Shown here: in pieces, positions 36,370 to 56,669 of the stretch | Position numbering within the stretch: the stretch's first letter is position 1 | How the letters are laid out: every line of letters begins with the position of its first letter | Source of the DNA: Hyphomicrobiales bacterium | GTDB lineage: Bacteria > Pseudomonadota > Alphaproteobacteria > Rhizobiales > Rhizobiaceae | DNA: 64,000 bases | Assembly (NCBI GenBank): GCA_900474095.1 | Contig: UCOA01000007.1 | Location: forward strand, 1 to 64,000 | Direction: 5' to 3' | Made by a program: the position numbers and the translations under genes | The notes under the pieces: generated by a model | What the model saw: only the letters and a program-made list of their open reading frames with translations | What the model was told of the DNA's origin: nothing | The model's database searches: none

Positions 36370-36418
36370 CATATCCGCACACCGGAATTAGGTCAATAAA
36401 ATCCCACTATTCGCGATT
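36370..36418 (-). promoter_or_regulatory. IclR-type operator copy a, with promoter of the GMC2 operon
   Basis: AATCCCACTATTCGCGATT at 36400-36418 fits the 19-bp dyad found through this region (ARTCCC-N7-GNGAYT). On the minus strand TTGACC and, 17 bp on, TATGTC follow it, so the operator lies just upstream of a likely promoter. Confidence 0.5.
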
Positions 36419-36509
36419 AGTTACTATTCGCCACCGTTATGGCGCTAACTGGGGCGGCGCGGCAAAATCGCCGCACCGCCTGTTGTGGATGCCGACATCA
36501 AAGCAAACG

Positions 36510-37991
36510 TCAGCGTGGAATGAAATTGTTTGTCGGCCGGATCGCCGACATCGAAATCATCACGCTTTTGGTCTCCAGAAACTCGTTGATCGCTTCGATG
36601 CCGTTTTCACGGCCGACGCCGGATCGTTTCATTCCACCGAAGGGCATGGTGAAACTATAGGTTCGATAGGTATTTCCCCAGAAGGTTCCGACCTCGAGCG
36701 CCTTGGACATCCGCAGCATCCGGCCGATATCGCTGGTCCAGACCGCTGCATTGAGGCCATAGGCGGTTTCGTTGCCGATCTTGATCGCTTCCGCCTCATC
36801 CTCGAACCCGATGATCGCGAGCACCGGGCCGAAAACCTCTTCCTGGGCGATCCGCATGGAGTTATTCACATCGGCGAAAATCGTCGGCTCGACGAACTGG
36901 CCGCCAACAATCCCGGGACCGTGTGCAGGCTTTCCCCCTAATACGCAACGAGCGCCTTCGGACCGGGCAATCTCGATATAGTCGAGTACCTTCTTAAACT
37001 GCGGTGCTGTGGCAATCGGGCCCATCTGCGTGCTTGCGTCCATCGGGTCGCCGATCTTGATTTCGCGCGCCCGCGCCACGAGAAGCTCGGTGAACCTCTC
37101 CTTGATCGAGTTCTGCACAAGAAGCCGCGAACCGGCCGAGCACATTTGCCCCGCCGCACCGAATATGCCCGAAACCGCCCCTGCGGCTGCCAGTTCCAGA
37201 TCCGCGTCGGCGAATATGATGTTGGGTGACTTGCCACCCAACTCCATCGCGACGCGTTTCATGCCCGCCGCTGCCGCGGCATAGACCTTTGCGCCGGTGA
37301 CATCCGATCCGGTAAAGGTCACGTGAGCGATGCCAGGATGCTCGACGAGCGGCGCACCGATGTCGCCACCAAAGCCCGTGACGACATTCAACACGCCATC
37401 GGGCAGACCGGCCTGCTTAGCGAGCGCGGCAAATTCCAGCGATCCAACCGAGGAGAATTCAGACGGTTTGATGACCGCGGCACACCCGGCCGCAAGCGCC
37501 GGTGCGCATTTGATGGTGAGAAAATGCAGCGGAGAATTCCAGGCTGTCAGTGCGAGAACGACGCCCACCGGTTCCCGATAGGTCATGCCCAGCAGGTCGG
37601 GCTTGTCCATCGGCATGACCGAGCCTTCGATCTTGTCCGCAAGCCCCGCGTAATAATACCAGAACTCCGCAACATATTTCAGCCCGCCGCGGGTTTCTGC
37701 CAGCAGCTTGCCGTTGTCGCGCGCTTCCAGCGTGGCGAGGCGATCGATGTTCTCGATCACCAAATCGCCGATCTTGTGCAGCACCTTGCCCCTCTGCGTG
37801 GGGGTCATGCTCGCCCATGGACCAACCTTCATGGCCTCATGCGCGGCGGAAACGGCCAGATCCGCGTCGGCCTTGGTCCCCCTGGCAATTTGCGCCCACG
37901 CCTCGCCGCGATAGGGATCAACCGTATCAAACCATTCGCCAGATGCCGGAGCGACCTCTGCGCCGTTGATCCAATGATTGTATTTCTTCAT
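36510..37991 (-). CDS. Aldehyde dehydrogenase (NAD-dependent, ALDH1)
   Basis: A 493-residue aldehyde dehydrogenase. Catalytic residues are visible: Glu250 in MELGGKSPN, Cys284 in GQMCSAGSR, the cofactor motif FTGSDVTG and Asn in TAWNSP. EEVFGPV and the late PFGGMKRSGVGRENG complete the fold. AGGAG precedes the ATG. It lies 168 bp after the GMC3 gene on the same strand, an alcohol oxidase/aldehyde dehydrogenase pair. Substrate unknown. Confidence 0.94.
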   Translation of the reverse strand: MKKYNHWINGAEVAPASGEWFDTVDPYRGEAWAQIARGTKADADLAVSAAHEAMKVGPWASMTPTQRGKVLHKIGDLVIENIDRLATLEARDNGKLLAETRGGLKYVAEFWYYYAGLADKIEGSVMPMDKPDLLGMTYREPVGVVLALTAWNSPLHFLTIKCAPALAAGCAAVIKPSEFSSVGSLEFAALAKQAGLPDGVLNVVTGFGGDIGAPLVEHPGIAHVTFTGSDVTGAKVYAAAAAGMKRVAMELGGKSPNIIFADADLELAAAGAVSGIFGAAGQMCSAGSRLLVQNSIKERFTELLVARAREIKIGDPMDASTQMGPIATAPQFKKVLDYIEIARSEGARCVLGGKPAHGPGIVGGQFVEPTIFADVNNSMRIAQEEVFGPVLAIIGFEDEAEAIKIGNETAYGLNAAVWTSDIGRMLRMSKALEVGTFWGNTYRTYSFTMPFGGMKRSGVGRENGIEAINEFLETKSVMISMSAIRPTNNFIPR

Positions 37992-38158
37992 TTATCTTCT
38001 CCTGAAATTTAGATTTGCGATGCTCCGAATGGAGCGGTCGACCGCATCGAGCCAAAGGGTTGCACCTTTGCGCGGAACTTGACCCGCCCGCTGGTGGAGT
38101 GAAACATGGCCGCCCAGCCGAACCACACCCAAGCAGCCACACGTCTCCACGAAACTGG

Positions 38159-39781
38159 TCATTGAGTGCGGCCCCTGATCACGTCCGAGGCGCGCTCGGC
38201 CATTGCCAGAACCGTGGCGTTGATGTTGCAGCCAAGAATTTCGGGCATGACGGATGCGTCGACGACCCTGATCCCGTCCAGGCCGTGCACGCGCAGCGCC
38301 TGATCGACGACGGTGAGCGGGTCTGTCCCCATGCGGCATGTGCAGGCGGCGTGCTGAACCGTTGTTGCCGTGCAGCGGACATGAAACTCGATGTCATCGG
38401 GCGATTGGCAACCAGCGCCTGGGATCAATTCCTCACCACGGAAAGGGTCGATCGCCCGCTGGCGCGCGACATCCCGGGCGATCTCGAATCCACGACAGAG
38501 GGTGGCCACATCCCGATCGGTGGACAAATAGCTGGGGTCTATCGATGGGGGCACCAGGGGATCCGGCGATCTCAGCCGCACCTCGCCGCGGCTTTCGGGA
38601 CGAGCCAGGATCGGACGCAGATAGAAAAGATCCTCCCAGTTGTTGATGTGGGGAAACCAGGCCCTGGCTTCCATCGCCCCCGCCCCAAACAGCATCTGGA
38701 GATCTGGAGTTTCGACGTCCGGCCTGGATTTGAGGATTGCGTTGACGCCGCTTGGCAGCACCGTCGCGGGCCCACGCCCCATCAGCGTGGCCTGCACAAT
38801 CGCCACCGCTAGTCGATCTATCCGCAACATCCTGTGCAACGGACCTTCCGGGCCAATGCGCTTGTAGGTCAACGGCACCGACAGGTGGTCCTGTAGGTTC
38901 TTTCCAACGCCTGGCAGATCCTGGACGATTTCGATGTCGTGGTGGCGCAGTGCCGCAGCTTCTCCGACACCCGAAAGCATCAGGATATGAGGCGTATTGA
39001 AGGCCCCAGCCGACAGGATGACTTCGGTACCGGCATACGCCATACAGAGTTTAGCCTTGTGACGATACTGAACACCGGTGGCGCGGCTGCCCCGGAAGTT
39101 GACTTTCGTCACATGCGCGCGGGTCACCACGTTGAGGTTGCGGCGCGATCTGCGGATCGGGGCGAGATAGGCCCGGGAGGCACTGGCCCGTTTGCCGTTG
39201 TGGATCGCCGATTGTGCAAGCCCGAACCCCACAGCATCTGGCCCATTGAGATCGTCACAGATCGGTTGTCCATTGGCAGCAGCCGCCTCCAGTATCGCAG
39301 TGCCCAGAGGATCGGTGGTGCAGGTATATTGCACATGTGTCGGTCCGCTGGTGCCACGGTGTTGCGACGGCGCGCCATGCCACGTTTCTAGCTGTTTGAA
39401 ATAGGGCAGAAGGGCTTCGTGCGACCACTCCGTCGCGCCAAGTGCGACCCATCTGTCGAAATCGCATTTCGCACCGCGGTTATGGGCCATGAAATTGATC
39501 GAGGACGATCCGCCTAGCACCTTTCCGCGCTTCACTTCGACACGTCGTCCAAAGAGATGCGGCTGCGGTTCGGTGACGAAGCCCCAGTCGAACAGTTCTT
39601 GCTGACGGATCACGCCGACACCGAGTGGGACGTGAATGACCGGGTTCCAGTCCCGCCCGCCCGCCTCGATCAGCAGCACACGGCAGGACGGGTCTTCGGA
39701 AAGGCGGGCCGCCAGAACGCACCCGGCCGATCCACCACCGACGACCACGTAGTCGAAGTTATCCCGATCGTCGTTTCGCAT
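38159..39781 (-). CDS. GMC-family FAD oxidoreductase (GMC3)
   Basis: A 540-residue GMC oxidoreductase: FDYVVVGGGSAGCVLAARLS at the N-terminus, then KRGKVLGGSSSINFMAHNRG. The C-terminal active-site segment reads VQHAACTCRMGTD instead of the usual HPxGTCxMG, but the His is kept, and CNINATVLAMAERASD gives the second polar residue. I start at the ATG at 39781; the frame extends 52 codons upstream, with a leader-like MATFLLLPCAILAAPSV, but GMC folds begin at the Rossmann motif. It belongs to the VOC-GMC3-ALDH1 unit. Confidence 0.92.
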   Translation of the reverse strand: MRNDDRDNFDYVVVGGGSAGCVLAARLSEDPSCRVLLIEAGGRDWNPVIHVPLGVGVIRQQELFDWGFVTEPQPHLFGRRVEVKRGKVLGGSSSINFMAHNRGAKCDFDRWVALGATEWSHEALLPYFKQLETWHGAPSQHRGTSGPTHVQYTCTTDPLGTAILEAAAANGQPICDDLNGPDAVGFGLAQSAIHNGKRASASRAYLAPIRRSRRNLNVVTRAHVTKVNFRGSRATGVQYRHKAKLCMAYAGTEVILSAGAFNTPHILMLSGVGEAAALRHHDIEIVQDLPGVGKNLQDHLSVPLTYKRIGPEGPLHRMLRIDRLAVAIVQATLMGRGPATVLPSGVNAILKSRPDVETPDLQMLFGAGAMEARAWFPHINNWEDLFYLRPILARPESRGEVRLRSPDPLVPPSIDPSYLSTDRDVATLCRGFEIARDVARQRAIDPFRGEELIPGAGCQSPDDIEFHVRCTATTVQHAACTCRMGTDPLTVVDQALRVHGLDGIRVVDASVMPEILGCNINATVLAMAERASDVIRGRTQ

Positions 39782-39951
39782 TATCTTACGGTCTCGACCC
39801 GATGGCCCGGAAACGTCGATGGACGCTGCCTTGCGCTCTCTTTCAGTTCTTCGGTGATGGGCTTTACGCTCCCGCGGCACCTTCCCGACGGAGGGTGCCG
39901 CGAGGATCGCACATGGCAGGAGGAGGAAGGTCGCCATGCGCTGCAGAACGG

Positions 39952-40237
39952 TCAGAAGTCAGGCACGCCTTTCAGTGCGGCCGCATAACCGATGCCCGGA
40001 AGCTCGGCCGAATAGATTGCTGCGTACCAGCCCGGTGTCGACACTGTCGGATGGCTTGAACACATTGCATCCTGTCTCGTTCATTTCCTTCCACGTGCCA
40101 GTCTCGTACGGCTTGATCTTGTCGCTGGTCAATTCCTCGGTCGGCCCAACGCGCGCAATCACCAAATCCTGCCTTGCAGGACTTATTTTATGTCGGGTTC
40201 CTTTCTGGCACTGAATTGTTGGTGAGTCACCAAGCAT
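39952..40237 (-). pseudogene. Frameshifted 3' gene remnant, family not identified
   Basis: A minus-strand frame reads DLVIARVGPTEELTSDKIKP, YETGTWKEMNETGCNVFKPS and then loses sense. A one-base shift near 40055 continues with PTVSTPGWYAAIYSAELPGI, GYAAALKGVPDF and a TGA at 39952. The restored text looks like the true C-terminus of a protein of unknown family whose front part is missing. It lies between the VOC and GMC3 genes on the same strand, so a former pathway gene may have been lost here. Confidence 0.5.
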
Positions 40238-40304
40238 TTGAGCTGCACAGACTTTCGATATAACTGCCGCTTATAGCGCTCGGACCTGCACCGATCGCCC
40301 CACT

Positions 40305-40895
40305 TCAGGCACCCTCGCCGGAGGCAAGAAAGGCGGCACGATCGACGAAACGTCGCAAAGGTTGAGACCGTCCGTCCCAGTGCTTACAAAGGCGATGGAT
40401 CCGGCTGAAATAGGCCATTCGATCCGCTGTCAATGGAACGATCTCGACGATCGAGCCGACACATGCAGGCGCCTCATAGTACGCGACACTCATGCTGCCA
40501 TCCTCCATGCGAACCGAACCTATTTCGCTAAAGCCATTCTCTTGCAGCCAGGTGCAAGCCGCGGGAAAGTCATCGGGCCAGAAGGCTGTGTGGTGATAGC
40601 CTTCCTGTCCGCGATCAAAAAATTCCTTGTAAAGCGACGGATGGTTGTCTTTGGGTTGGATCAATTCGATCTGGAGGTCGCCGATGTAGGCGAAGGCGAC
40701 ATAAAAATCCATCGGCGTCGATTGTCCGCGGTAGAAGATATCGCGATTGCCACGGGAATTTTCGATTAATACGAACGGTCCGATCCGCATGACCTCCGTC
40801 CAGAATTTGATCGTCGCCTCAATATCCTTAACGACAAAAGCCAACTGCGCTCGTTCTCCCAGAAAGCGTAGAGGCATGGGTGTTTCAGGTGTCAT
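40305..40895 (-). CDS. VOC (glyoxalase/dioxygenase fold) family protein
   Basis: A 196-residue vicinal oxygen chelate protein: RAQLAFVVKDIEATIKFWTE opens the first beta-alpha-beta-beta-beta unit, with ELIQPKDNHPSLYKEF and GYHHTAFWPDDF, and the second unit ends SIVEIVPLTADRMAYF. Likely metal ligands include His in GYHHTAF and the Glu residues in QIELIQP and VEIVP. The exact chemistry (lyase, dioxygenase or isomerase) is unknown. AGGAA precedes the ATG. It appears to be the first gene of the unit running into GMC3 and ALDH1. Confidence 0.85.
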   Translation of the reverse strand: MTPETPMPLRFLGERAQLAFVVKDIEATIKFWTEVMRIGPFVLIENSRGNRDIFYRGQSTPMDFYVAFAYIGDLQIELIQPKDNHPSLYKEFFDRGQEGYHHTAFWPDDFPAACTWLQENGFSEIGSVRMEDGSMSVAYYEAPACVGSIVEIVPLTADRMAYFSRIHRLCKHWDGRSQPLRRFVDRAAFLASGEGA

Positions 40896-41068
40896 TTTGC
40901 GGTTCCTGTTTCAATTCTGCGCGCGACGCCCCGCGCCCATCCATCGCGACAACTACGGCCGATGCCGCTGCGTGTTTTGCCGAGCGCCAGACTTTGATCC
41001 CACCTCGGTGGACGAAGTAACGCTTTCCTTGCTCGACTGAGCGCGACCCGGTTGATGCGGTTGCAATT

Positions 41069-41097
41069 TAATCCCACATTGTGATTATGTTTGTCAA
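41069..41097 (-). promoter_or_regulatory. IclR-type operator copy d, with -35 box of the VOC operon
   Basis: TAATCCCACATTGTGATTA (41069-41087) is a dyad with TAATC/GATTA outer arms, two bases shorter than the other copies. On the minus strand TTGACA (41092-41097) is followed after 17 bp by GGATTA, so the dyad covers the promoter spacer and -10 region. Confidence 0.5.
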
Positions 41098-41182
41098 TTG
41101 ACCGAGAGTTCCGCGTGCGGGCTCCGCTGCATGGAGGCATTAGGTATTTTTACCTTTTGGCCCGCCCATTAGGCCAGTCCAC

Positions 41183-41198
41183 TTAATCCCAGATGTGA
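41183..41198. promoter_or_regulatory. Partial IclR-type operator copy e
   Basis: TTAATCCCAGATGTGA has the left arm of the dyad and a weak right arm. It lies between the full copies d and f in the divergent VOC/NIPSNAP gap and could be an accessory site. Confidence 0.25.
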
Positions 41199-41259
41199 CG
41201 CAGACCCCATGTCTTTGCCACCATCCGCACCTTCACATTTGAAGTTCTACGAGTGGCTC

Positions 41260-41303
41260 TTGATATAATCCCGCATATTGACACCATGCATCACGCATGG
41301 TGT
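41260..41303 (+). promoter_or_regulatory. IclR-type operator copy f and a perfect 9-bp inverted repeat
   Basis: TTGATA (41260) is followed by TAATCCCGCATATTGACA (41266-41283), so the operator fills the promoter spacer. Directly after it, ACACCATGC and GCATGGTGT (41281-41289 and 41295-41303) form a perfect 9-bp inverted repeat with a 5-bp gap, at or near the transcription start of the NIPSNAP gene. It may be a second operator or a transcript hairpin. Confidence 0.5.
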
Positions 41304-41413
41304 GTGTTGAACCACAGCTGGAGGCGGAGGATTCCTTCCAGCAAAGAGCAATGCGCGGTGTAGCCTTGCTGACCATCATTCGGACGAGAGCGGACGACCT
41401 CAGGGAGAATTGC

Positions 41414-42079
41414 ATGTGGAACAAGCCCATCGTCGAGATTCGGGTGGAGGAATACGAGCGCGGCACGCTTGCCCAACTCATGACGGTCTACCACGACCTC
41501 GGCCTGCCCGCTCAGCTGCGCCACCTTGGGAGCCCGCTTAACTTCTATGTGCCAAACGTCGGACGGATCAATTGCATCACGCAGTTGTGGGCGTTTGATT
41601 CCCTTGCAGACTACGAGGCGAAACAAACAGTACTTGAAGCCGATCCATCGTGGCAGAAATACCTCGAGGCTGCGGAGGGCTTGATCCGTTACCGCGAAAA
41701 CAGGCTGACACGTCGCATCGCATTCTCCAGCATCGATGGGCAACCGAATACTTCGTTCAAAAAACCGGTGGTGGATTTTCGCACCTATCTCATTCACTTC
41801 AACAAGATGCCGACTTTCCTTCAAACAACGGAGCAGCATGCCCTAAAGGTGATGGTGCGCCATATCGGACCACCGATAGGATATTACCAGACGACTGTCG
41901 GGAACCTGCAGCAGATCACCCATATCTGGGGGTATGACAGCATGGGTGACATGGAGACCCGTCGGCAGGCTCGCAATGCGGATCCGGAATGGGACAATTA
42001 CCTCAGGGCATCGCACGGGATCTACGAACGGCAGGAAACACAGGTACTAGTCCGGCTCAAATTGCCTGACAACGTCTAG
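41414..42079 (+). CDS. Tandem NIPSNAP-domain protein
   Basis: A 221-residue protein made of two NIPSNAP (ferredoxin-like barrel) repeats. Repeat 1 spans about 4-100 (IVEIRVEEYERGTLAQLMTV, WAFDSLADYEAKQTVLEADP). Repeat 2 spans about 118-215 (VVDFRTYLIHFNKMPTFLQT, WGYDSMGDMETRRQARNADP). The shared Dx(S)-(L/M)-x-D and ADPEW/ADPSW patterns show internal duplication. The ATG at 41414 has AGGGAG six bases before it. Function is unknown; bacterial members often lie in catabolic clusters. It is transcribed from the operator f promoter, divergent from the VOC unit. Confidence 0.87.
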   Translation: MWNKPIVEIRVEEYERGTLAQLMTVYHDLGLPAQLRHLGSPLNFYVPNVGRINCITQLWAFDSLADYEAKQTVLEADPSWQKYLEAAEGLIRYRENRLTRRIAFSSIDGQPNTSFKKPVVDFRTYLIHFNKMPTFLQTTEQHALKVMVRHIGPPIGYYQTTVGNLQQITHIWGYDSMGDMETRRQARNADPEWDNYLRASHGIYERQETQVLVRLKLPDNV

Positions 42080-42194
42080 CCGGAAAACTGGTGCCATGCG
42101 CACGGGCATAGACAGCGCGCCAGACACTTGATTGTGGCCGGCGTCGTTTTCGGAATGCTTGCAGCAAATGCGCGGCGGCAAGGAAATCATATAA

Positions 42195-42245
42195 AGTCCC
42201 GATATTCGGGATTTTGTTGACTTCGTCAATTCGTCCGGCTTAATG
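42195..42245 (+). promoter_or_regulatory. IclR-type operator copy g, with promoter of the ALDH2 operon
   Basis: AGTCCCGATATTCGGGATT (42195-42213) is a near-perfect dyad with 7-bp arms and one mismatch. TTGACT (42217) and TTAATG (42240), 17 bp apart, follow, so the operator abuts the -35 box. Confidence 0.6.
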
Positions 42246-42324
42246 TCGGACAGGAGTGAGCGGCGCGCTATCGATCCAGTCGGGGCGGTCCGGACCTGTA
42301 TTGATCCAAAAAAGGGAGGTCACC

Positions 42325-43821
42325 TTGACCGAAACATCAAATAGTTCTCAGATTGCCGGCTATAGCGAAGCGCTGGAGTGGCTGAGGGGCGGCCCCAAGC
42401 AGATGCTGATCAACGGCAAACACGTTGCCGCGCTTTCCGGCAAGACGTTCATGGCAATCAACCCGGCAACAGAAGAGGTCGTCGCTGAAGTTGTGGAAGG
42501 GGATTCGGCGGATGTCGATCTTGCAGTCGCGTCAGCCCGTGCGGCCTTTGAGTCAGCCGCCTGGACCAACATGACGCCTCACGCTCGGGGTAAATTGCTC
42601 AGTGATGTTGCCGATCTGGTCGATAAGCATGCTGACCAGCTGGCGGTGCTGGAAACGCTCGATCTCGGCGCGCCGATCACAGTCTCCCGGAACTTCGTCA
42701 AATACTGCGCCCAGACCTTTCGCTATTATGCGGGCTGGCCCACCAAGATCATGGGAAGCACATCGCCAAGCGAACCGGGTCGTTTGATCTACGGATTGCG
42801 CGAGCCGCTTGGCGTCTGCGCCCTCATCAACCCATGGAACGCGCCTCTGAACCAGGCTGCCACCAAGATCGCACCGGCGCTGGCCTGCGGCAATACGGCA
42901 GTGATCAAGCCGGCCGAACTCACCAATTTCACCACACTGCGGCTGGCTGAACTGATGCTAGAGGCTGGAGTCCCACCGGGCGTGCTGAACGTGGTGACAG
43001 GCCACGGTGCCACGGTGGGCAATGCCCTGACCAACCATCCCGACATCAACAAAATTTCGTTTACCGGCTCAACCGAGGTGGGGCGACAGATCCTTTCCGC
43101 CTCGGCCAGCAATTTCAAGAAGGTAACGCTGGAGCTCGGCGGCAAGTCACCGAACATCATCTTCTCAGACGCCGATCTCAGCAAGGCGATTGCAGCCGCG
43201 GCCAGCACCTTCACCCGAAACTCGGGCCAGATCTGCTCGGCGGGTACCCGATTGTTTGTCCATGAATCGGTTTACGACGAAGTGAGCGAAAAGGTCACGA
43301 ACATCGCCGCCGGTTACAAGGTTGGCTCGCCGTTTGAGGCAGGCGTCGAACTGGGACCGCTGATCTCGGCAAAGCAGCAGGAGCGGGTGCTCTCCTACAT
43401 ACAGGCAGGCCACACGCAAGGAGCGAAAGCCAGTCTTGATGGATCTCGGCAGAAGCGCGATACGGGCTACTACGTCAATCCGACGGTCTTCAGCAAGGTC
43501 GACAATTCGATGAAGATCGCACAGGAGGAAATCTTCGGTCCTGTCCTCTCCATTATCTCGTTCAAGGATGAGGATGACGCCGTCTTCCAGAGCAATAACA
43601 GCGGATACGGGCTAGCCGCCGCTGTGTGGACGCGCGACATCTCGTGCGCGCACAAGGTAGCCCGGCGCCTGCAAGCCGGTCGTGTCTGGGTAAACACCTA
43701 TGGCGAGATCGACCAGGTCATGTCGGTGGGAGGCTATAAGCAATCAGGCGTTGGCCGCGAGATGGGCCCGGAGTCCATCGACGCCTACACGCAGACCAAA
43801 TCGGTGATCGTTCGTCTGTAA
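42325..43821 (+). CDS. Aldehyde dehydrogenase (ALDH2)
   Basis: A 498-residue aldehyde dehydrogenase with Glu270 (TLELGGKSPN), Cys304 (GQICSAGTR), FTGSTEVG for cofactor and the late GGYKQSGVGREMGPES. I take the TTG at 42325 as start because GGGAGGT lies four bases before it; a GTG at 42256 would add 23 unconserved residues. It is co-oriented with the CMD-like gene 143 bp downstream and is driven by the operator g promoter. Confidence 0.93.
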   Translation: MTETSNSSQIAGYSEALEWLRGGPKQMLINGKHVAALSGKTFMAINPATEEVVAEVVEGDSADVDLAVASARAAFESAAWTNMTPHARGKLLSDVADLVDKHADQLAVLETLDLGAPITVSRNFVKYCAQTFRYYAGWPTKIMGSTSPSEPGRLIYGLREPLGVCALINPWNAPLNQAATKIAPALACGNTAVIKPAELTNFTTLRLAELMLEAGVPPGVLNVVTGHGATVGNALTNHPDINKISFTGSTEVGRQILSASASNFKKVTLELGGKSPNIIFSDADLSKAIAAAASTFTRNSGQICSAGTRLFVHESVYDEVSEKVTNIAAGYKVGSPFEAGVELGPLISAKQQERVLSYIQAGHTQGAKASLDGSRQKRDTGYYVNPTVFSKVDNSMKIAQEEIFGPVLSIISFKDEDDAVFQSNNSGYGLAAAVWTRDISCAHKVARRLQAGRVWVNTYGEIDQVMSVGGYKQSGVGREMGPESIDAYTQTKSVIVRL

Positions 43822-43964
43822 CCGAGCCGCAATTGCCGCACCGGCCCAACCGCCGGTTCGGCATTTCGCTCACGGAGAATGGAAGCAACAAGAACACCGA
43901 CCAATCGCGCACAGCCTTTGGCGATATGGCGTCTTGGACGCCCCGATGAATTGTGGAGTGAGAC

Positions 43965-44735: not shown

Positions 44736-44790
44736 AAGGCTCAGGCGGCCACACCGGTCCCCGCTTGATTTCAATCTTTCCCTTGTCTGT

Positions 44791-44832
44791 TGCATGTCGC
44801 GTTTGAATGCATTCACCCAAGCGCGACATGCA
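44791..44832. terminator. Long-stem convergent hairpin, probable bidirectional terminator
   Basis: TGCATGTCGCG (44791-44801) and CGCGACATGCA (44822-44832) are a perfect 11-bp inverted repeat, extendable by three pairs inside. It lies between the CMD-like gene (+) and the SDR gene (-), which converge. No clear T run is visible. Confidence 0.55.
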
Positions 44833-44838
44833 TAGCCG

Positions 44839-47179: not shown

Positions 47180-47198
47180 AATCCCAGATATAGAGACT
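47180..47198. promoter_or_regulatory. IclR-type operator copy j
   Basis: AATCCCAGATATAGAGACT fits the 19-bp dyad consensus, with TGACA at 47171 nearby. It lies 280 bp upstream of copy i; it may be an upstream site for the same promoter. Confidence 0.4.
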
Positions 47199-47489: not shown

Positions 47490-47538
47490 CATTAATGCGT
47501 CAGCATGAACGATGCGTATAAAGGGACCGAGGAACACC

Positions 47539-48900: not shown

Positions 48901-49122
48901 GCCGCCCCGTGTCGAGCACTGTGCTGTGCGCGCAAGGTCGCCGCCTCATTTGCAGTGCCGTTGCGACAGCGGCGCGAGGCGAACGTCAAGCACGAGAGAG
49001 CCAGGGCCGCGCTGGCGACCTGGTTCAGACAATATGCCTTCGGGCATTTCATATCGAGGGCGCGGATGAACGTCACCCGCGCGGCTCCGATAGCAAGATG
49101 AAGCACAGCAAGGAGTGTAGAA

Positions 49123-49539
49123 ATGACTGAAACAAGCCCGGTAATCTATACCGCACATACGCATACGACAGGTGGCCGTGAAGGCGCTGCCCGCAGCAAC
49201 GATGGCCGGTTGGATGTGAAGCTTTCCAAGCCAGGCAGCACCGGCGCCGGCACCAATCCGGAGCAGCTTTTTGCCGCCGGGTGGTCAGCCTGCTTCGAAG
49301 GTGCGCTCGGCCTTGCCGCGCGGCGGATGAAAGTGACACTGCCCCCAGATATGGCTATTGATGCGGAAGTGGACCTTTGCGGCACGAGCGGTGAGTATTA
49401 TCTGCGCGCGCGCCTCAACATCAGCCTGCCGGGCCTAGAGCCCGAGGTCGCAACCCAGATGGCGGAAGCCGCACATCAGACCTGCCCATATTCTAAGGCC
49501 GTACGCGGCAATATCGAGGTTACAATCGCCGTTGTCTGA
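49123..49539 (+). CDS. ohr: Organic hydroperoxide resistance protein, OsmC/Ohr family
   Basis: A 138-residue Ohr protein with both redox cysteines: one in GWSACFEGALG and one in HQTCPYSKA. The front TNPEQLFAAG and the start IYTAHTHTTGGREGAARSND are typical. It reduces organic peroxides using lipoylated partners. AAGGAG precedes the ATG. In this setting it may protect against peroxides made by the oxidases of the pathway; it is probably co-transcribed with the MmgE/PrpD gene. Confidence 0.92.
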   Translation: MTETSPVIYTAHTHTTGGREGAARSNDGRLDVKLSKPGSTGAGTNPEQLFAAGWSACFEGALGLAARRMKVTLPPDMAIDAEVDLCGTSGEYYLRARLNISLPGLEPEVATQMAEAAHQTCPYSKAVRGNIEVTIAVV

Positions 49540-49736
49540 CCTGCTCTTCAAGCCTGCCAGATGCAATCGGTAGCTGACGCGATTTTCCAATGTGCGCACG
49601 TCAGCATCTCGTGGCTGTGTACCAATCTTGGTCATCGCGGAGTTTGACGCAGTGAACCGTTTTTCCGCAAGCATAGGATTATGAATGGGCTGTCCGTTGC
49701 TGCCCGGATGCGGATGCTGAAGCTGATATCGAACAG

Positions 49737-49773
49737 TGAAACGCCGCGCGTTGTTCCCCCGCGCGGCGTTTCA
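49737..49773. terminator. Bidirectional terminator hairpin
   Basis: TGAAACGCCGCGCG (49737-49750) and CGCGCGGCGTTTCA (49760-49773) form a perfect 14-bp stem with a 9-base loop. It lies 35 bp before the end of the convergent cupin gene and downstream of ohr, and its AAAC/GTTT ends supply short U tracts in either direction. Confidence 0.75.
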
Positions 49774-49807
49774 GGTCTTGGAATTGCCGATGTCGAGCGC
49801 AGCTGTA

Positions 49808-50188
49808 TCAGCCTTCCTCTGTGAAGAACTTGATCCCATCCATAAACTTGTTGGGCGCCATGAAGACGGACAGGATCACGGCTCCTTTTGGCGAATGGGC
49901 AATATGCATATTGCCACCGGGCCGCCAGACGAAATCGCCGGCCGAGCAGGTCCCCTCGTCATCCTCGAGCGAACCTTCCAGCACATAGGTCTGCTCAAGC
50001 TTGGTATGTTCGTGCAGGGGAACGATCGCTCCAGGTCCCATCTTGAAAAGAATGGTCGAGCGGCCATCCGCATCCTTGTAGAGGATCTTCATCTGGATCT
50101 TGTCGATGCCTGTTTCCTCCCACTCCATGGCAGATGCGGCGATGAAATGCGAAGCAAGCTCCGGGGGGTTGATGTTTTTCTGGGCCAT
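49808..50188 (-). CDS. Cupin domain protein
   Basis: A 126-residue single cupin (ChrR/anti-sigma cupin-like). Metal-binding motif 1 is seen as PLHEHTKLEQTYVLEGSLED (His, His, Glu), and motif 2 as GDFVWRPGGNMHIAHS. GGAGGA lies six bases before the ATG at 50188. It is the last gene of the BKACE-nitrilase-cupin operon, 20 bp after the nitrilase stop. It may be a small dioxygenase, isomerase or sensor; the sequence does not decide. Confidence 0.87.
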   Translation of the reverse strand: MAQKNINPPELASHFIAASAMEWEETGIDKIQMKILYKDADGRSTILFKMGPGAIVPLHEHTKLEQTYVLEGSLEDDEGTCSAGDFVWRPGGNMHIAHSPKGAVILSVFMAPNKFMDGIKFFTEEG

Positions 50189-50207
50189 GGGTTCCTCCAT
50201 TCCAAGG

Positions 50208-51059
50208 TTAAGAGATATCGAGTTTGTCGATTTTGAAGTCCGGATTCGTGTAGAGGCTGGGGACGCGAGTGCGAACCGTTTCACACAGGGCCGTATCGAT
50301 ATCGGCGATGCAGAAGGTCTCTGGCTGATCACCGCAACTGTCGATAACCTGTCCCCAGGGATCGATGATCATGGCATGCCCATGCGTGTGCCAGTCGCCA
50401 GGGTGGGTGCCGCAGGTGGCCGCTGCCAGAACATAGGCGCCGGTCTCGATCGCACGCGCCCGCAGCAATGGCTCCCAATGGGCACGTCCCGTTTCGGCCG
50501 TGAACGCTGAGGGCACCATGAGAATATCGGCTCCCGCCAGGGCGAGGCCACGATACAAGGCTGGAAACCTTAGGTCATAACAGACCGACATCCCGATTGT
50601 GCCGATCGGCGTCCCGACCACCACAGCCTGTGTTCCCCCTGCATAGTGGCGAGATTCGCCGACCAGGCGGCCATCCTGAAGGCGGGCATCAAACAGGTGG
50701 ATCTTGTCATAACGGGCCGCGATCGCACCCGCGGGTGTGATCAGAAAGGACCGGTTCAACAACCGCGATTGCGGGCTATCATCGGCCAGGATGACAAGGC
50801 TACCGACCAGCAACCAGATGCCGTGCTCGCCGGCCAGCACGCGCATTTGCGCTAGTACCGAGCTGTCTTGTTCCAGCGTTGCCGAGGATCGCATGGATTG
50901 ACCGGAGCGATCCAGATAAGTCGCGAATTCTGGCAGGCAGACCAGCGTCGCCCCCTGCTCCACCGCACGCGCAACGAGCCGCACGATCGTCGCCATGGTC
51001 TGGCCAAGGTCGTTGCCCGGCGTCAGCTGCAGACAGGCGGCGCGGCAGATCGCGGTCAT
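50208..51059 (-). CDS. Carbon-nitrogen hydrolase (nitrilase superfamily, Nit-type amidase)
   Basis: A 283-residue nitrilase-superfamily protein with the catalytic triad Glu44 (CLPEFA), Lys119 (RYDKIHLFD) and Cys160 (GMSVCYDLRFPALYR). It is closest to the Nit1/Nit2 branch, which contains omega-amidase and deaminated-glutathione amidase. Its ATG overlaps the BKACE stop (51056-51059), so both proteins should be made together. It would release ammonia from an amide intermediate. Confidence 0.9.
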   Translation of the reverse strand: MTAICRAACLQLTPGNDLGQTMATIVRLVARAVEQGATLVCLPEFATYLDRSGQSMRSSATLEQDSSVLAQMRVLAGEHGIWLLVGSLVILADDSPQSRLLNRSFLITPAGAIAARYDKIHLFDARLQDGRLVGESRHYAGGTQAVVVGTPIGTIGMSVCYDLRFPALYRGLALAGADILMVPSAFTAETGRAHWEPLLRARAIETGAYVLAAATCGTHPGDWHTHGHAMIIDPWGQVIDSCGDQPETFCIADIDTALCETVRTRVPSLYTNPDFKIDKLDIS

Positions 51060-51937
51060 TGCGCTGACAAGCCCAGCAGCGCGCGGGCTTCGGTCGATGT
51101 GGCAACCTCGCCGCCGATAGAGCGGATGATACCGACAGCCTTGTCCACGAGTTGCGCATTGGTGTCGGCAAGGACACCCTTGCCGAGATAGAAATTGTCC
51201 TCCATACCGACACGCACATGCCCGCCCATCAGGAATGACTGCGCAACCATTGGGAATTCGGACCGTCCGACGCCGAAGGCAGCCCAGATGGTGTCGCGCG
51301 GCAAAGCCGATTTAAAATAGGCCACCATTTCGGCCGTGGCGGGAGCGCCCCAGGGGATCCCAAGGGCAAACTGGAAAATCGACGCCGCAGGCACAGTGCC
51401 ATCCTTGAGCATTTTCAGGGCCAGCGCCAGGTGACCGGCATCGAATATCTCCAGCTCCGGAAGGGATCCGGCCTGCTGAATACCCCTGGCAATCGCCTCG
51501 ATCTGAGCAGGCACGTTAATCAGCGCGCCGCTCCCAAAATTCAGAGAACCCATGTCAAGCGTACAGATTTCGGGCTTCAGATCGAGGATGTGGCGAACCC
51601 GGTCCGATGGTGGACGGACGTTGGATCCGGCAGCGAACGTATTTGTTTCTTCCAGACCCGGTACGAAGCGGGCACCCGGACCGGTGGTCAGATTAAGGAT
51701 AATATCACTTCCGGAGTCGCGGATAATTTCCACCACCTGCCGATAGTATTCCAGCTCCATGCTCGGCTTTCCAGTATCCGGATGGCGGACATGGATATGC
51801 GCGATGGCGGCACCGGCGGTGCCTGCCTCGATGACCGCCTGCGCGATCTGCTTCGGCGTGATCGGCAATTGCTTGAACTTGTGAGCTACGTCGTCACCAC
51901 CCGTTACGGCGCAGGTTAGAATAGTCTTCTCGTTCAC
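51056..51937 (-). CDS. BKACE (beta-keto acid cleavage enzyme, DUF849) family protein
   Basis: A 293-residue zinc-dependent BKACE protein. Landmarks are LTCAVTGGDD, HIHVRHPDTG with His48 and His50 as zinc ligands, LNLTTGPG, FDAGHLALALKMLKDG and GMEDNFYLGKGVLADTNAQL. The family cleaves a beta-keto acid with acetyl-CoA to acetoacetate and a new CoA ester (Kce in lysine fermentation; other members use dehydrocarnitine and similar). The start is GTG with AAGGA nine bases upstream. First gene of the operon under operator k. Confidence 0.93.
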   Translation of the reverse strand: MNEKTILTCAVTGGDDVAHKFKQLPITPKQIAQAVIEAGTAGAAIAHIHVRHPDTGKPSMELEYYRQVVEIIRDSGSDIILNLTTGPGARFVPGLEETNTFAAGSNVRPPSDRVRHILDLKPEICTLDMGSLNFGSGALINVPAQIEAIARGIQQAGSLPELEIFDAGHLALALKMLKDGTVPAASIFQFALGIPWGAPATAEMVAYFKSALPRDTIWAAFGVGRSEFPMVAQSFLMGGHVRVGMEDNFYLGKGVLADTNAQLVDKAVGIIRSIGGEVATSTEARALLGLSAQ

Positions 51938-52097
51938 CCGTTTATTCCTTCTCAACAATCGGGGATTTGCCCCCTGAATTCTCGCGGTTGCAGCGCTGGA
52001 TCACCCTTTAAGTGCGCATCGAACTTTTGGAGCAATGGCCGGGGACCAGCCGCGGCATGACATTGTTAGTGCCATGCGGATTTGAAACGCTGAATTA

Positions 52098-52126
52098 ATA
52101 GTTCCTGCATTGTGGGACTTTGTCAA
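52098..52126 (-). promoter_or_regulatory. IclR-type operator copy k within the BKACE promoter
   Basis: On the minus strand TTGACA (52126-52121) and AACTAT (52103-52098) are 17 bp apart, with AGTCCC and GGAACT arms of the dyad (52100-52119) filling the spacer. The arrangement matches copies h and i. Confidence 0.55.
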
Positions 52127-52139
52127 TAAATGAATTCAT

Positions 52140-52540
52140 CTGGCGGCATCTATCCGGCGCACTTTTGGTAAGACAGCGCTCCAAGCCTGATCGATCCGAC
52201 AGGGATAAGCGGACCTGCCAAACGGGCATACAAACCGGGCTCGGAGACGGATACCGCCCGCGATACCATCCCGCGAAGAAAACCTCGCGGCACAGCCCTT
52301 TCAGCCAGCGAACCGCCGCCTAGGCAGGCCGTGACGCCGAGGCCATGGATGGGGAAAGGACCACCGGCAACGGCTTCCGTCTGCCGCAGACCGCGCATCG
52401 GCCCACCCATGCTGGTCACATAGGGGATATATAGCCGGCAAAAACCGGCCGGCGCGTGGGCACGTAGAATGCATTGACGTCGCTGCCATCCTCCCGGCAG
52501 CTCCAGGTCTCGCACGCAATACTGTCAACTAATAGAGCCG
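52140..52540 (-). pseudogene. Possible decayed coding sequence, unidentified
   Basis: One minus-strand frame reads DGSDVNAFYVPTRRPVFAGY before a stop; another continues PYVTSMGGPMRGLRQTEAVA, GGPFPIHGLGVTACLGGG. The pieces join at the same place (about 52440), which suggests a frameshifted dead gene. I cannot name the family. The remaining bases to 52635 hold nothing I recognise. Confidence 0.3.
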
Positions 52541-52635
52541 TTGCTCGCGCATGTCCCAGAGAGGGCTTTCGCGGGAGGTTCTTGCCACCGATGCATTCAC
52601 TCCGTCGTCTGTCCGGCGCTGGTTTGCCGGTGCCG

Positions 52636-54657
52636 TCACGATGACACCCGCCCCTCGCGCAAGGCCAGAAGTGCGGCCATCAGGACGCAGCCCAGTATGA
52701 TGCTGCGGAACGCATCCGGCAGCATCGTGCCACCGATCAGGATCTGCAGCGCAATCAGCATCAACACGCCGCAAACGACACCAGGATAGTGTCCACGCCC
52801 GCCGGTAATCAGCACCCCGCCGGCCACGACAACGGCAACCGATGGCAGCAGGTACTGGTCGCCCATGCTCAGCGTCGACGCTCCGTTGAAGCCAACCAGA
52901 AGCACCGCTGCAAGCGCGGTTGAGGCACCACAGATCATATAGGCCAGCACCGTTGTCAGGCGCACATTGATGCCGGAGAGATTGGCCACCACCGCGCTGT
53001 TGCCCAGGGCGTAGAGCTGACGCCCCGCAGCCGTGGCCGTCAGGAATATAGTAGCCAGGATGACGAAGGGGATGAAGGCCCAGACCACCGGCTGAAGCCC
53101 GAGCACGTTGCCGCTGACAAACCAGAGCAGTAACGGCGGGGAAAAACCCTTCGGTGAGCCATTGGTGTAGAACAGCGTCAGCCCCTGAAGAATTCCGTTC
53201 ACGGCCAACGTCATGACCAGTGGCGGTAATCCGAGGATGATCACGCCCAAGCCGTTGACCAGACCGACGGTTAGGCCAAGACCAATGACTGTAGGAACGG
53301 ACCATAGCAATGCCGCGTCGGATCCATCGACCAGGCTCGAAAACACGACGGCGCACAACGTGATCGCCCAGGGTATCGACAGGTCGAGCCCTCCGGTGAT
53401 GATCACCGTGGCTTGACCGAATCCCAGCACGCCGAGAAGTGCAGTCAGCAACAAGAGCGAGCGCACATAATCGGCTCCGAGATTGCCGAAAAAGGCAAAG
53501 GTGACAGCCACAATGACCAGGAATGCGCCCAGCGCCGGCAAGACCTGCCGGATATTCTCGGCATGCAGCACGCGAAACGAGGCGTGCGGCATGGCGCCGT
53601 CCGGGCTGGTCTCAGCCATAGGTCTATGGGCCCGTAGTCGCGGCGCCGCCAGGCTGCCACGAACCTGCCGGACGATATCGGACAGATTGTGCAGCAGCGA
53701 ATTTTCCGACATCAGGGAGCTGAGGACGACTGCCAGAATGAGGATTGCACCGTCGAAGATCGGCGAAAGATAGGTGGGCATCGAAAACACCATCAGGGTG
53801 TTGACCGTGCTCATCAACAGGAATGCGCCGAAAACCGGCCCGACCAGCCCGCCTCGACCGCCCGCCAGCGACGTGCCGCCCAGAACCACGGCAGTAAAGA
53901 CCTGAATGAGCATGGACGAGCCGACCAACGGATCGCTGCCCCCCGCCTGTGCTGTGATAAAAAGGCCTGAGGCACCGTAGAAGCCACCGGCGATGGTATA
54001 GGCCAGAAACTTGACTTTCGCCGTTTTGACCCCGTTTGCCGCTGCGGCGGCCTCGTCACTGCCGATGGCATAGATCGCCATGCCGAGCCGGCTGTTGCGG
54101 AGTAACATCCAGAGTGCGATCGCCGAAAGAATGACCACCAGCGCTGCGGGCAGCAGGTTAGGGATGGCATCGCCTGCAAAGAAATTGATGAACTCGCTCG
54201 TCACATACCCACCCGGTATCGGCATGACCAAGAGTGCCGCACCTTGCAGGATGAACAAAGTCGCCAGCGTCACCACGATCGGCTGGATCCTGAGATAGGC
54301 GATGAGGAACCCGTTTACCGCACCGGCGCCGGCGCCAATCAACAGGCCTAGCACCGACACCACGAACTGGTTGACCGGGCTGTCGGTCATCGTCGAGCCG
54401 ACAAAAACGCTGACGAGCGAAACAATGGCCCCGACGCTGAGGTCGATCCCGCGGGTCAAAACGACAAGCGCCAAACCCATGGACGCAAGGGCAAGGCCGC
54501 CCCCTGTGCCCAGGTTGGAACTGATATCGAAATAGCTGAGCGGAAACGGCGTGAACTGGTGGGTGATCAGTGTCACCCCGATCAGCAGTGAAAGCACGAG
54601 GAGCGGTGTGCGGTTCCGATGCAGTTGGTATTGCGCGCCTGCAAATGCTCCGGTCAT
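52636..54657 (-). CDS. Fused double permease of a CUT2 sugar ABC transporter, importer III
   Basis: A 673-residue protein made of two complete BPD_transp_2 permeases. The first (about 20-330) has LVVLTRGIDLSVGAIVSLVS and FTAVVLGGTSLAGGRGG; a charged linker (about 335-380) follows; the second (about 385-665) has ATVIITGGLDLSIPWAITLC and NYLLPS-like DQYLLPSVAVVVAGGVLITG. The halves match the two separate permeases of importer II in the same order. The ATG at 54657 overlaps the ATPase stop (ATGA). A natural fusion would fix a 1:1 heteromeric pore. Confidence 0.92.
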   Translation of the reverse strand: MTGAFAGAQYQLHRNRTPLLVLSLLIGVTLITHQFTPFPLSYFDISSNLGTGGGLALASMGLALVVLTRGIDLSVGAIVSLVSVFVGSTMTDSPVNQFVVSVLGLLIGAGAGAVNGFLIAYLRIQPIVVTLATLFILQGAALLVMPIPGGYVTSEFINFFAGDAIPNLLPAALVVILSAIALWMLLRNSRLGMAIYAIGSDEAAAAANGVKTAKVKFLAYTIAGGFYGASGLFITAQAGGSDPLVGSSMLIQVFTAVVLGGTSLAGGRGGLVGPVFGAFLLMSTVNTLMVFSMPTYLSPIFDGAILILAVVLSSLMSENSLLHNLSDIVRQVRGSLAAPRLRAHRPMAETSPDGAMPHASFRVLHAENIRQVLPALGAFLVIVAVTFAFFGNLGADYVRSLLLLTALLGVLGFGQATVIITGGLDLSIPWAITLCAVVFSSLVDGSDAALLWSVPTVIGLGLTVGLVNGLGVIILGLPPLVMTLAVNGILQGLTLFYTNGSPKGFSPPLLLWFVSGNVLGLQPVVWAFIPFVILATIFLTATAAGRQLYALGNSAVVANLSGINVRLTTVLAYMICGASTALAAVLLVGFNGASTLSMGDQYLLPSVAVVVAGGVLITGGRGHYPGVVCGVLMLIALQILIGGTMLPDAFRSIILGCVLMAALLALREGRVSS

Positions 54658-56294
54658 TGTAAGGCTCCGCTTTCGGCAACCCCACAGCATGGCGTCTTGT
54701 CGCCGAGCATGAACCGCATGATTTCCTTTTCGGAAATGTCGCCTTGCGGGCCTTGAGCTGACAGAACTTCGGCAACCCTTCCGCCATAGAGAACGAGCAC
54801 CCGGTGGCACATCTGGCACACTTCCGGTGTCTCGCTGGAATAAAGCAGGACCGACCCTCCGGCGGCGGCGAACTCGTTCACCATCCGATAGATTTCATGC
54901 TTGGTCCCGACATCGACGCCGCGGCAGGGATCAAAGAGCAAAAGCACATTCGGATCGGTCAGCAACCATTTGCCGATGACGATCTTTTGCTGATTGCCGC
55001 CGCTGAACGCGCCTGCGCGGGTATGGACGGCACGATCAGCCAGTTGCACCTGCTTCATCATCTGCGCCACCGCCATGGTTTTGCGGCGGCGGCTCAGCAA
55101 CCCGAAGCGGCTGATCCGGCCGAGAATTGGTGCGACCATGTTTTCCAGGCCGCTAAGCTGCAGAAACAAGCCCTCGGTCTTGCGCTCCTCAGGCACCAGC
55201 GCGATCCCGCTATTGATCGCCTGTCGCGGCGATCCCAGGCGCACGGGCACGCCGTTCAGGCTGACAGTACCGGCAGATGGCGGTTCGACACCAAACAGCA
55301 GATCGAACAACTCCTTTTGCCCCATCCCCTGCAACGCCGCGACCCCCAGAATCTCGCCGGGGCGCAGATCAAAAGAGCAGCCGGCGAGACGCGCCCTGGC
55401 GGACAGGCCTTCCACCCGCAAGGTCGGTTGCTTGTCCATGGCAACCGCGGTTTTTCGCGGAAAGGTGGCGTCCAGCGACCGGCCGATGATCATCTCAACG
55501 ATCTTTTCGTCGCAGACATCGCCTGCAGCAAACGACCCTACATCCCGGCCGTTGCGGAGCACCGTGACATGTTCGCAGAATTTTCTGATTTCCTGCATCT
55601 TGTGGGTAATCATTACTACGGTCATTCCGGCCGATTTCAGGTCACGAACCAGCCCTTCCAGCCAATCTACGTCGCGCGAGGTCAGCGCTGAGGTTGCCTC
55701 ATCCAGGAATAGCACTTCCGGCTGGCGGAAAAGAGCACGTGCGATCTCGACTTTCTGACGCTGGCTGAGAGACAGGGACCGGGCTTCTGCGCGAAGGTTC
55801 ACATCGTTCAGACCGAGCCTGTCGAAATGGTCGAGCACGGAGCGGCGCGCGGCGCGCCAGTCGATCAGTCCGAACGCCCTACGCGGCTCGTGCCCCAGCA
55901 CCATGTTTTGCAAAATGCTGAGATCCGGCGCCAGAGCCAGTTCCTGAAACGCTGTCTGCAGTCCAGCGCGCTGGGAATCGAGCGGTCCATTGAATACGAC
56001 CGGCCGTCCCTTGACGCTGATGGTGCCGCTATCCGGGCGAATGAGGCCACTCAGTAGTTTAATGGTCGTCGATTTTCCGGCGCCATTTTCGCCAAGCAGC
56101 GCATGCGCCGTGCCGGGCCGCACCGAAAAACTGACATCGACGAGCGCTTTGGTTGCGCCATAACTCTTTGACAGGTTGGCCACTTCCAGAGATGACGCAT
56201 CAATGGAATGGCAGGCAGCTCCTCGCAACAGGGCAATTGGCCCCGTCACGGGGACATCCGCGATAATCCCGGTCGAATGGAAAAGCGTGTTCAT
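54654..56294 (-). CDS. Sugar ABC transporter ATP-binding protein (CUT2), importer III
   Basis: A 546-residue double ATPase. Walker A GENGAGKST is at 68-76; Walker B VLFLDEATSALTSRD has Ala where DEPT is usual. The second domain has LVPEERKTEGLFLQ, FSGGNQQKIVIGK and LLLFDPCRGVDVGTK, sharing the FDP substitution with importer II. The ATG at 56294 has GGGAGG just upstream. The frame stays open 100 codons further up, but that part is not family-like. No binding-protein gene accompanies the cassette. Confidence 0.92.
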   Translation of the reverse strand: MNTLFHSTGIIADVPVTGPIALLRGAACHSIDASSLEVANLSKSYGATKALVDVSFSVRPGTAHALLGENGAGKSTTIKLLSGLIRPDSGTISVKGRPVVFNGPLDSQRAGLQTAFQELALAPDLSILQNMVLGHEPRRAFGLIDWRAARRSVLDHFDRLGLNDVNLRAEARSLSLSQRQKVEIARALFRQPEVLFLDEATSALTSRDVDWLEGLVRDLKSAGMTVVMITHKMQEIRKFCEHVTVLRNGRDVGSFAAGDVCDEKIVEMIIGRSLDATFPRKTAVAMDKQPTLRVEGLSARARLAGCSFDLRPGEILGVAALQGMGQKELFDLLFGVEPPSAGTVSLNGVPVRLGSPRQAINSGIALVPEERKTEGLFLQLSGLENMVAPILGRISRFGLLSRRRKTMAVAQMMKQVQLADRAVHTRAGAFSGGNQQKIVIGKWLLTDPNVLLLFDPCRGVDVGTKHEIYRMVNEFAAAGGSVLLYSSETPEVCQMCHRVLVLYGGRVAEVLSAQGPQGDISEKEIMRFMLGDKTPCCGVAESGALQ

Positions 56295-56594
56295 GTTTCC
56301 TCCCTGGTCCTCCATGCCGCGCATCCAGGCCTTACGACCCGCCTCTTCCCGTTGCGCGCGCCATTCGATGGCGGGGTCCTGACGGGACAGGACAAACCCG
56401 GCGAACTCCCTTCGCGTGATTGTCCTTGCGTCCGACAGGGGCATGCATTCGATGCGGTGGTGACGAAACGTTGATGTTGTGCAGATCAGAAAATCGCACG
56501 AGTCATGGCACCGGGCATGACCGTTCACAGACAAAGCCGTCTCCCAAGGCTTCCGTCGCATCTCACCACTTGTCACCTGCGGCACGATCTCCAC
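56295..56594 (-). other. Open frame ahead of the importer III ATPase, likely leader
   Basis: These 300 bp continue the ATPase frame without a stop (for example RTITRREFAGFVLSRQDPAI). I find no family match, and the strong ribosome site is at 56294, so I treat this as the untranslated leader, or as remains of an older gene. Confidence 0.3.
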
Positions 56595-56650
56595 ACGTGC
56601 CGTATCGAGGTACGATGAAACTGAAGCCTCCCAACTCCAGTCATTAATCT

Positions 56651-56669
56651 AGTCCCGCATATTGAGATT
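56651..56669 (-). promoter_or_regulatory. IclR-type operator copy l upstream of importer III
   Basis: AGTCCCGCATATTGAGATT shares the 12-base core TCCCGCATATTG with copy f. It lies about 360 bp before the ATPase start codon. No clear -35 box is visible, so the promoter is not placed. Confidence 0.5.

Follow-up and report, generated by a model that had tools for sequence, protein, structure and literature searches.

A dyad at catabolic promoters is the probable operator of an IclR-family regulator in a Rhizobiaceae genome

Within a 64,000-nucleotide stretch of DNA from a Hyphomicrobiales bacterium of the Rhizobiaceae (contig UCOA01000007.1; hereafter the window), a short dyad, WRTCCC-N7-GRGAYW, recurs at the promoters of some ten groups of genes, the majority of them catabolic. 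We consider it very likely that this dyad is the operator of the IclR-family regulator encoded at 46067, which would repress several promoters by occluding the spacer between their -35 and -10 boxes and be induced by a product of the nutrient. We read the dyad as an IclR landing site because related IclRs in distant bacteria often carry the same word at their own promoters. A first-pass annotation had proposed the copies as the mark of an IclR-centred catabolic regulon. This interpretation is supported in part, for the shared promoter word, for such a regulon and for the co-occurrence of word and IclR in other species; the joint repression of all the operons, which it also inferred, may apply to several of them. 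About 25 kb of catabolic genes would thereby become one testable regulon with predicted switch positions.

The dyad and its regulator

The protein encoded at 46067 belongs to the IclR family, combining an N-terminal HTH_IclR domain (2.2e-7, 31.0 bits against a cut-off of 22) with a C-terminal IclR_C domain (1.1e-27, 97.2 bits against 24). Its gene sits between dyad copies e and f, among the operons that bear sites. Each of the nine dyad strings listed in the first-pass annotation occurs in the window exactly once, without mismatch, at the coordinate and on the strand given for it. We letter them a to i in their printed order; the earlier letters run to k, and their mapping onto ours is uncertain. 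The regulator gene, the nine copies and three further candidates are as follows.

46067 to 46939, plus strand: IclR-family regulator of 290 residues (Pfam HTH_IclR and IclR_C; recognition helix SRSTGYRYI)
36400 to 36418, minus strand: site a, in the 19-bp register, before the GMC oxidoreductase gene 34606-36372; TTGAC at +13 in the gene direction
40165 to 40183, minus strand: extra site absent from the earlier list, before a GMC oxidoreductase gene (38159-39937) and then an aldehyde dehydrogenase gene (36510-37991); 13.9 bits, tenth best in the window by the relatives' matrix (see below)
41070 to 41086, minus strand: site b, the 17-bp version, before the glyoxalase-type gene 40305-40895; 19.6 bits
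41267 to 41285, plus strand: site c, centred 21 bp before the NIPSNAP gene 41297-42079; TTGAT at -16
42195 to 42213, plus strand: site d, before the aldehyde dehydrogenase gene 42256-43821; TTGAC at +13
45740 to 45758, minus strand: site e, before the SDR gene (open reading frame, ORF, 44839-45747); TTGAC at -15
45976 to 45994, plus strand: possible autoregulatory site, centred 82 bp before the IclR gene; 14.1 bits by the relatives' matrix, 14.5 by the window matrix
47180 to 47198, plus strand: site f, in the gap before the MmgE/PrpD gene at 47512, its centre 288 bp before that of g
47468 to 47486, plus strand: site g, centred 35 bp before the MmgE/PrpD gene 47512-48900; the best copy by the relatives' matrix, 24.5 bits; TTGAC at -16
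52101 to 52119, minus strand: site h, before genes for BKACE (51056-51958), a CN hydrolase (50208-51059) and a cupin (49808-50332); 13.9 bits; TTGAC at -16
56651 to 56669, minus strand: site i, before a sugar-type ABC ATPase gene (ORF 54654-56594) and a permease gene (52636-54819)
61021 to 61039, strand not assigned: possible extra site of unsure membership, before the LysR gene 61228-62151; 17.3 bits; outside the span first annotated

Seven copies (a, c, d, e, f, g and i) share one 19-bp palindrome register, and h fits it at 52101 when scored by a matrix of the sites of IclR relatives (the relatives' matrix). Copy b is the sole strong 17-bp version, with the next best at that spacing scoring 11.5 bits, so the original description of a 19-bp dyad holds for the seven and h but not for b. 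When a symmetric matrix made from six of the aligned copies was used to score the held-out seventh over 63,982 window positions, the seven held-out ranks were 2nd, 3rd, 4th, 8th, 9th, 9th and 10th. The copies sit outside ORFs with a family match, as expected of sites in gaps before operons, with the exception of e, which reaches into the long N-terminal part of the SDR ORF. The Pfam domain of that ORF starts only at residue 65, and the true start of the gene is probably further in.

The matrix built from all seven aligned copies (the window matrix) scores eight positions at 14 bits or more between 31.8 and 60 kb, namely its source sites and 45976, and, outside that interval, two: 27321, which falls within ORF 27124-27885, and 61021. 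The first-pass annotation had missed 45976 and 40165. The word at 61021-61039 may be a regulon member or the LysR protein's own site.

The dyad is rare in the rest of the source genome when judged by matrix. Across 169,472 bases of other DNA from that genome, the window matrix found no position of at least 14 bits and 12 of at least 11 bits, and the genome's seven other IclR loci (3.6-3.8 kb each) hold no site of at least 14 bits. Genome-wide, five of the eight places that fit the consensus with zero mismatches lie in the cluster, from whose copies the consensus itself was written; allowing up to one mismatch gave 69 rows against 57 for a backward control. The genome search suggested in the first-pass annotation thus bears out the word at matrix level only, its loose consensus being barely commoner than the control. 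Ranked by the relatives' matrix, the four best of 51 distinct consensus places are all in the cluster (24.5 to 19.6 bits), and the next two, at 18.9 and 18.8 bits, lie off it, close behind. Three off-cluster places were not counted as members: a high scorer (C118) before a LacI-type gene, the likelier owner of that palindrome; another (C156) that follows a peptidase gene close to the end of a contig; and one of 15.0 bits (C233) inside a long open frame.

Dyads beside related regulators

A scan of genome contigs with the window IclR alone gave no matches; a scan with an alignment of five IclR relatives gave 58 named loci. In these the window matrix found 69 sites of at least 14 bits against 5.0 in block shuffles, and 32 of the 58, in two phyla and including Streptomyces, Pseudarthrobacter and Rhodococcoides, carry at least one. 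Plasmid loci behave alike: nine sites of at least 14 bits (0.25 in shuffles) lie in 41 kb of Paracoccus versutus pBEN around a 48%-identical IclR (L023), with two on pAK76 (0.15), two on pNK81 (0.35) and one on pEP1 (0.25). The 58 loci and five plasmid loci together hold 84 distinct sites, 62 of which fall outside ORFs of at least 150 residues, although such ORFs leave just 20.6% of that DNA uncovered. Sites in the Streptomyces, Pseudarthrobacter and Sinomonas loci start 35-50 bp ahead of the IclR-matching stretch, a distance taken to that stretch and not to a start codon. Two near copies of other loci (L092 of L090, L114 of L098) are left out of the 57-site and 61-locus counts below and retained in the 58-locus, 84-site and 62-site counts; L025 is left out of the site-position, base, promoter, helix-class and LysR-relative counts.

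We consider it next to impossible that the copies arose by chance or by selection by eye among many short words. Such a reading could draw on the loose consensus, with its 69 rows against 57, but it would have to accommodate held-out ranks of 2 to 10 among 63,982, an empty 169-kb control at 14 bits, the cross-species excess of 69 sites over 5.0, and a count made without any matrix that finds the same word.

That matrix-free count took all six-letter half-sites at gaps of 3-11 between genes, corrected for composition, separately for each class of recognition helix and ignoring rows of N. In the 26 loci whose helix reads SRSTGYRY, the three best words (ATATCC-N9-GGATAT, ATCCCA-N5-TGGGAT and TATCCC-N7-GGGATA) are three frames of one motif, each found 14 times against 0.15-0.23 expected. 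None of these frames ranks among the ten best words of the PASTCYRY, SRSTCYRY or SRSTSYRY classes, although the four classes differ in their amount of DNA (34-124 kb), so that the count might overlook a weak motif where a class is small. By matrix, 22 of 26 SRSTGYRY loci carry a site and 0 of 14 PASTCYRY loci do; more broadly, sites occur in 24 of 28 R[SP]TGYRY loci and 11 of 33 others (Fisher P 6.6e-5, kinship ignored). Because the word tops the SRSTGYRY loci and sites divide between these two helix classes, the matrix-free count and the class split tie the dyad, at the level of sequence, to the window IclR.

Could the dyad instead serve another DNA-binding protein, perhaps a global regulator or the product of the LysR gene at 61228, with the IclR gene a bystander? 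A site-like word does precede the LysR gene at 61021, and the Sinorhizobium meliloti and Paracoccus loci hold LysR genes too. We nevertheless think this very improbable. Across 61 loci the word accompanies the IclR and its recognition helix, in the matrix-free count as well; its length, symmetry and A/T centre agree with the IclR operator class as printed in PMC8222616; no ORF called in the relatives' loci matches the window LysR at E <= 1e-15 and 60% cover; and 169 kb of other genome DNA holds no site of at least 14 bits.

More distant relatives appear to use related words. The 11 loci of 31-40% identical IclRs (L009-L019) hold four sites, against none at the source genome's seven other IclR loci, and therefore the wider IclR branch uses similar words. 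L025 (Diaphorobacter, 40% identical IclR) has no site of at least 14 bits. Near the IclR genes of 31-43% identical relatives we also observed AATCTCA-N5-TGAGATT-like dyads (L013 at 2287, L016 at 2315, L024 at 10110), a sister word in the same layout.

Operator class and promoter geometry

Group-1 IclR operators follow the consensus GKTYCRYW3-4RYGRAMC (Suvorova and Gelfand 2021, PMC8222616). The WTT-11-AAW subgroup printed there, WTTYCRYW3RYGRAAW, resembles the word found here, WTCYCRYW3RYGRGAW, in its odd palindrome, spacing and A/T centre, and differs in that the window dyad mostly has C for T at the third core letter (G for A in the other half). Base counts over 62 sites from relatives, gathered by the window matrix, agree: the palindrome is odd with a W3 centre and a core spacing of 11, A/T makes up 98% at the centre with R 93% and Y 73% beside it, and the third core letter, T in group 1 (K-T-Y-C), is C in 91%. 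Hence the operator, on the evidence of its letters, is a variant of the commonest IclR operator class with one changed base. This third-letter C appears in none of the four group-1 subgroups in the printed text of PMC8222616, apart from its supplementary list of 181 groups. The same text places group-1 sites mostly 20-80 bp before gene starts and describes IclR-family regulation of the own gene and neighbours as common. Its contact rules are not usable here, since the window IclR has Ser and Thr at helix positions 27 and 30 by alignment reading.

The regulon had been called undescribed, and we did not find it in the literature covered, which took in neither the PMC8222616 supplementary tables nor the greater part of the subscription journals; the type of operator, by contrast, is a slight variant of the IclR class published there. 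Searches for MmgE/PrpD, BKACE and GMC genes clustered with IclR, or for TATCCC or AATCCC with the IclR family, returned no paper that looked relevant. A close printed word is that of GenR of Corynebacterium glutamicum, ATTCC-N7(5)-GGAAT (PMC8222616, Table 1), whose gaps of 7 and 5 match the 19- and 17-bp versions here. GenR is printed as controlling 3-hydroxybenzoate and gentisate genes; the scanned window proteins, which do not cover every ORF, include no gentisate dioxygenase. The printed operators of IclR, PcaR, PcaU and PobR (PMC8222616) differ from the dyad, as does the GCAACG motif given for the IclR-family PheR (PMC13273656). The best NCBIfam matches of the window IclR are BhcR and PcaR/PcaU, in the family that also holds E. 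coli IclR and PobR, but its scores of 94.7 and 91.7 bits fall far under the respective curated cut-offs of 350 and 284.75, and it reaches none of the PcaR/PcaU/PobR, BhcR, KdgR or IclR equivalog cut-offs.

Promoter geometry suggests how the dyad might act. Among 57 intergenic sites of relatives, 12 have a TTGAC that begins 16 bp ahead of the dyad centre, against a mean of 0.46 per offset; the 12 are spread over seven loci, in Paracoccus, Microvirga, Streptomyces, Pseudarthrobacter and Arthrobacter. Of the window copies, c, g and h carry TTGAY at -16 and e carries TTGAC at -15, each directed toward its own gene. With a -35 box at -16 and the usual 17-bp spacer, the -10 box would cover the far half-site, making bound protein and polymerase mutually exclusive. 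We thus propose that an IclR dimer contacts both half-sites with its SRSTGYRYI helices, that the bound protein keeps RNA polymerase from c, g, h and, with a placement one base shorter, e, and that an inducer derived from the nutrient releases it. It would control its own gene, the sugar-type ABC importer, and enzymes that oxidise alcohols and aldehydes and process acids. The earlier claim that the dyad fills the spacer at four copies is only partly right: in our lettering c, g, h and e are so placed, whereas the 45 bp around the centres of f and i, like those around 45976, contain no TTGAY, and sites a and d have their TTGAC at +13, on the far side of the dyad, directed toward the genes they precede.

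Sites a and d may point to a dual regulator that represses where the dyad fills the spacer and, where the dyad is immediately upstream of the -35 box, acts as an activator or in both ways. PcaU and PobR are activator or dual cases in the IclR family. Placement at +13 could suit an activator too, three TTGAC words of relatives lie at +12/+13, and the family is described in print as containing repressors, activators and dual regulators (PMC8222616). Yet this case comprises only two sites in the window and three words from relatives, TTGAC is seen more often at -16 (12 of 57), and an operator upstream of a -35 box can also repress; we regard a dual role as possible but rather unlikely.

Several results count against the dyad being an operator of this IclR that acts by occlusion. 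Twenty-six of the 58 named loci lack a site of at least 14 bits, among them three of four Alteromonas loci although their IclRs are 60-62% identical with the same helix. The intermediate helix classes carry sites in part (SRSTCYRY 6 of 11 loci, SRSTSYRY 4 of 7); the classes are also branches of the tree, so that common descent, with no causal tie, could link helix and motif, and the choice of loci was made partly by helix peptide. The relatives' matrix places the seven aligned copies, h, 45976, 40165 and 61021 as the 11 best places in the window, with 8 at 14 bits or more and 12 at 12 or more (1 and 5 in the 169-kb control), but its sites were gathered by the window matrix and the ranking is a consistency check. 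The gathering matrix likewise favours C at the third core letter, on which the matrix-free count agrees. The loose consensus hardly exceeds its backward control. As for mechanism, crude ORF calls put a gene start in the promoter direction at 8 of the 12 TTGAC/-16 sites and one on the other side at 5, and pure occlusion misfits a and d, with the dyad upstream of TTGAC, and f, i and 45976, with none.

Spread of the regulator

The regulator's closest relatives lie on plasmids and in other genera. IclRs 62-64% identical to it occur on Sphingobium and Sinorhizobium plasmids and in Pseudomonas; of 917 matching plasmid records six were examined, and the best plasmid relatives are those of Sphingobium EP60837 (62.6%), Sinorhizobium meliloti AK76 (62.5%), Caballeronia NK8 (50.9%) and Paracoccus versutus (47.9%). 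At 1e-40, 12 of 201 genomes matched, including the source genome, the other 11 at 31-40% identity. The cluster looks acquired, because 20 listed same-genus genomes have no IclR match at that threshold and the matches elsewhere are only 31-40% identical. With a profile from five IclR relatives, the source genome was the sole match at E <= 1e-75 among 385 genomes of the class. Megablast of window positions 40000-60000 against plasmids returned only short pieces (<=1% of the query), and ARAGORN predicted no tRNA genes there or elsewhere in the window.

In a tree of 63 IclRs with a midpoint root only, the 12 Actinomycetota rows form one branch (100/99) that groups with Pseudomonas (100/99) within a set of Pseudomonadota rows, a topology that would fit one passage between phyla. 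The enzymes behind the sites vary among hosts, and we infer a portable switch with changing cargo. More speculatively, regulator and operator may form a unit that keeps its DNA word, swaps its enzymes and crosses between Pseudomonadota and Actinomycetota, with a few helix letters (SRSTGYRY against PASTCYRY) setting the WTCCC word; we hold this tentatively, at somewhat less than even chances. If true, it would put varied break-down genes under the same switch and give the IclR family a new specificity rule. More than 30 loci in two phyla allow recognition-helix letters to be compared with operator letters.

Genes behind the sites

The genes behind the window sites encode two GMC oxidoreductases, two MmgE/PrpD proteins, an MFS transporter, aldehyde dehydrogenases, a glyoxalase-type protein, NIPSNAP, an SDR and the IclR itself, together with BKACE with its CN hydrolase and cupin, and the sugar-type ABC importer. 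Behind site a, on the same strand as the GMC gene 34606-36372, lie:

33169 to 34548: MmgE/PrpD gene
31809 to 33050: MFS gene, following it

These three genes would form one operon. The enzymes predicted to be under IclR control are the two GMC oxidoreductases, the aldehyde dehydrogenases, the SDR, the two MmgE/PrpD proteins and BKACE with the amidase-like CN hydrolase; the MmgE/PrpD, BKACE and GMC genes are thereby grouped into what may be one pathway.

Parts of this gene set recur elsewhere. On S. meliloti plasmid pAK76, genes for IclR, MmgE/PrpD, BKACE, CN hydrolase and cupin adjoin, and there MmgE/PrpD shares 68%, BKACE 77% and the CN hydrolase 60% identity with its window counterpart; Microvirga tunisiensis carries this set consecutively. 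In Paracoccus versutus L023, a site at 38868 lies between a homologue of the ABC ATPase behind site i and a Peripla_BP_4 gene. MmgE/PrpD is the commonest first-gene family behind relatives' sites, at 8 of 56 scanned, a tally without background; the 56 come from 66, after removal of 10 that were IclR genes or were truncated or doubtful as ORFs, and one was replaced by its neighbour. The pBEN locus L023 also holds four MmgE/PrpD genes in its 41 kb with nine dyads of at least 14 bits, and there a gene for a TPP-dependent enzyme adjoins an aldehyde dehydrogenase gene.

Elsewhere in the window, positions 3092-16141 hold two more sugar-type ABC ATPase genes, a Peripla_BP_4 protein and a third GMC gene; below 27 kb the window matrix scores no position of at least 14 bits. 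At 56935-60325, molybdenum hydroxylase-type genes adjoin site i, and pAK76 has such genes beside its IclR too.

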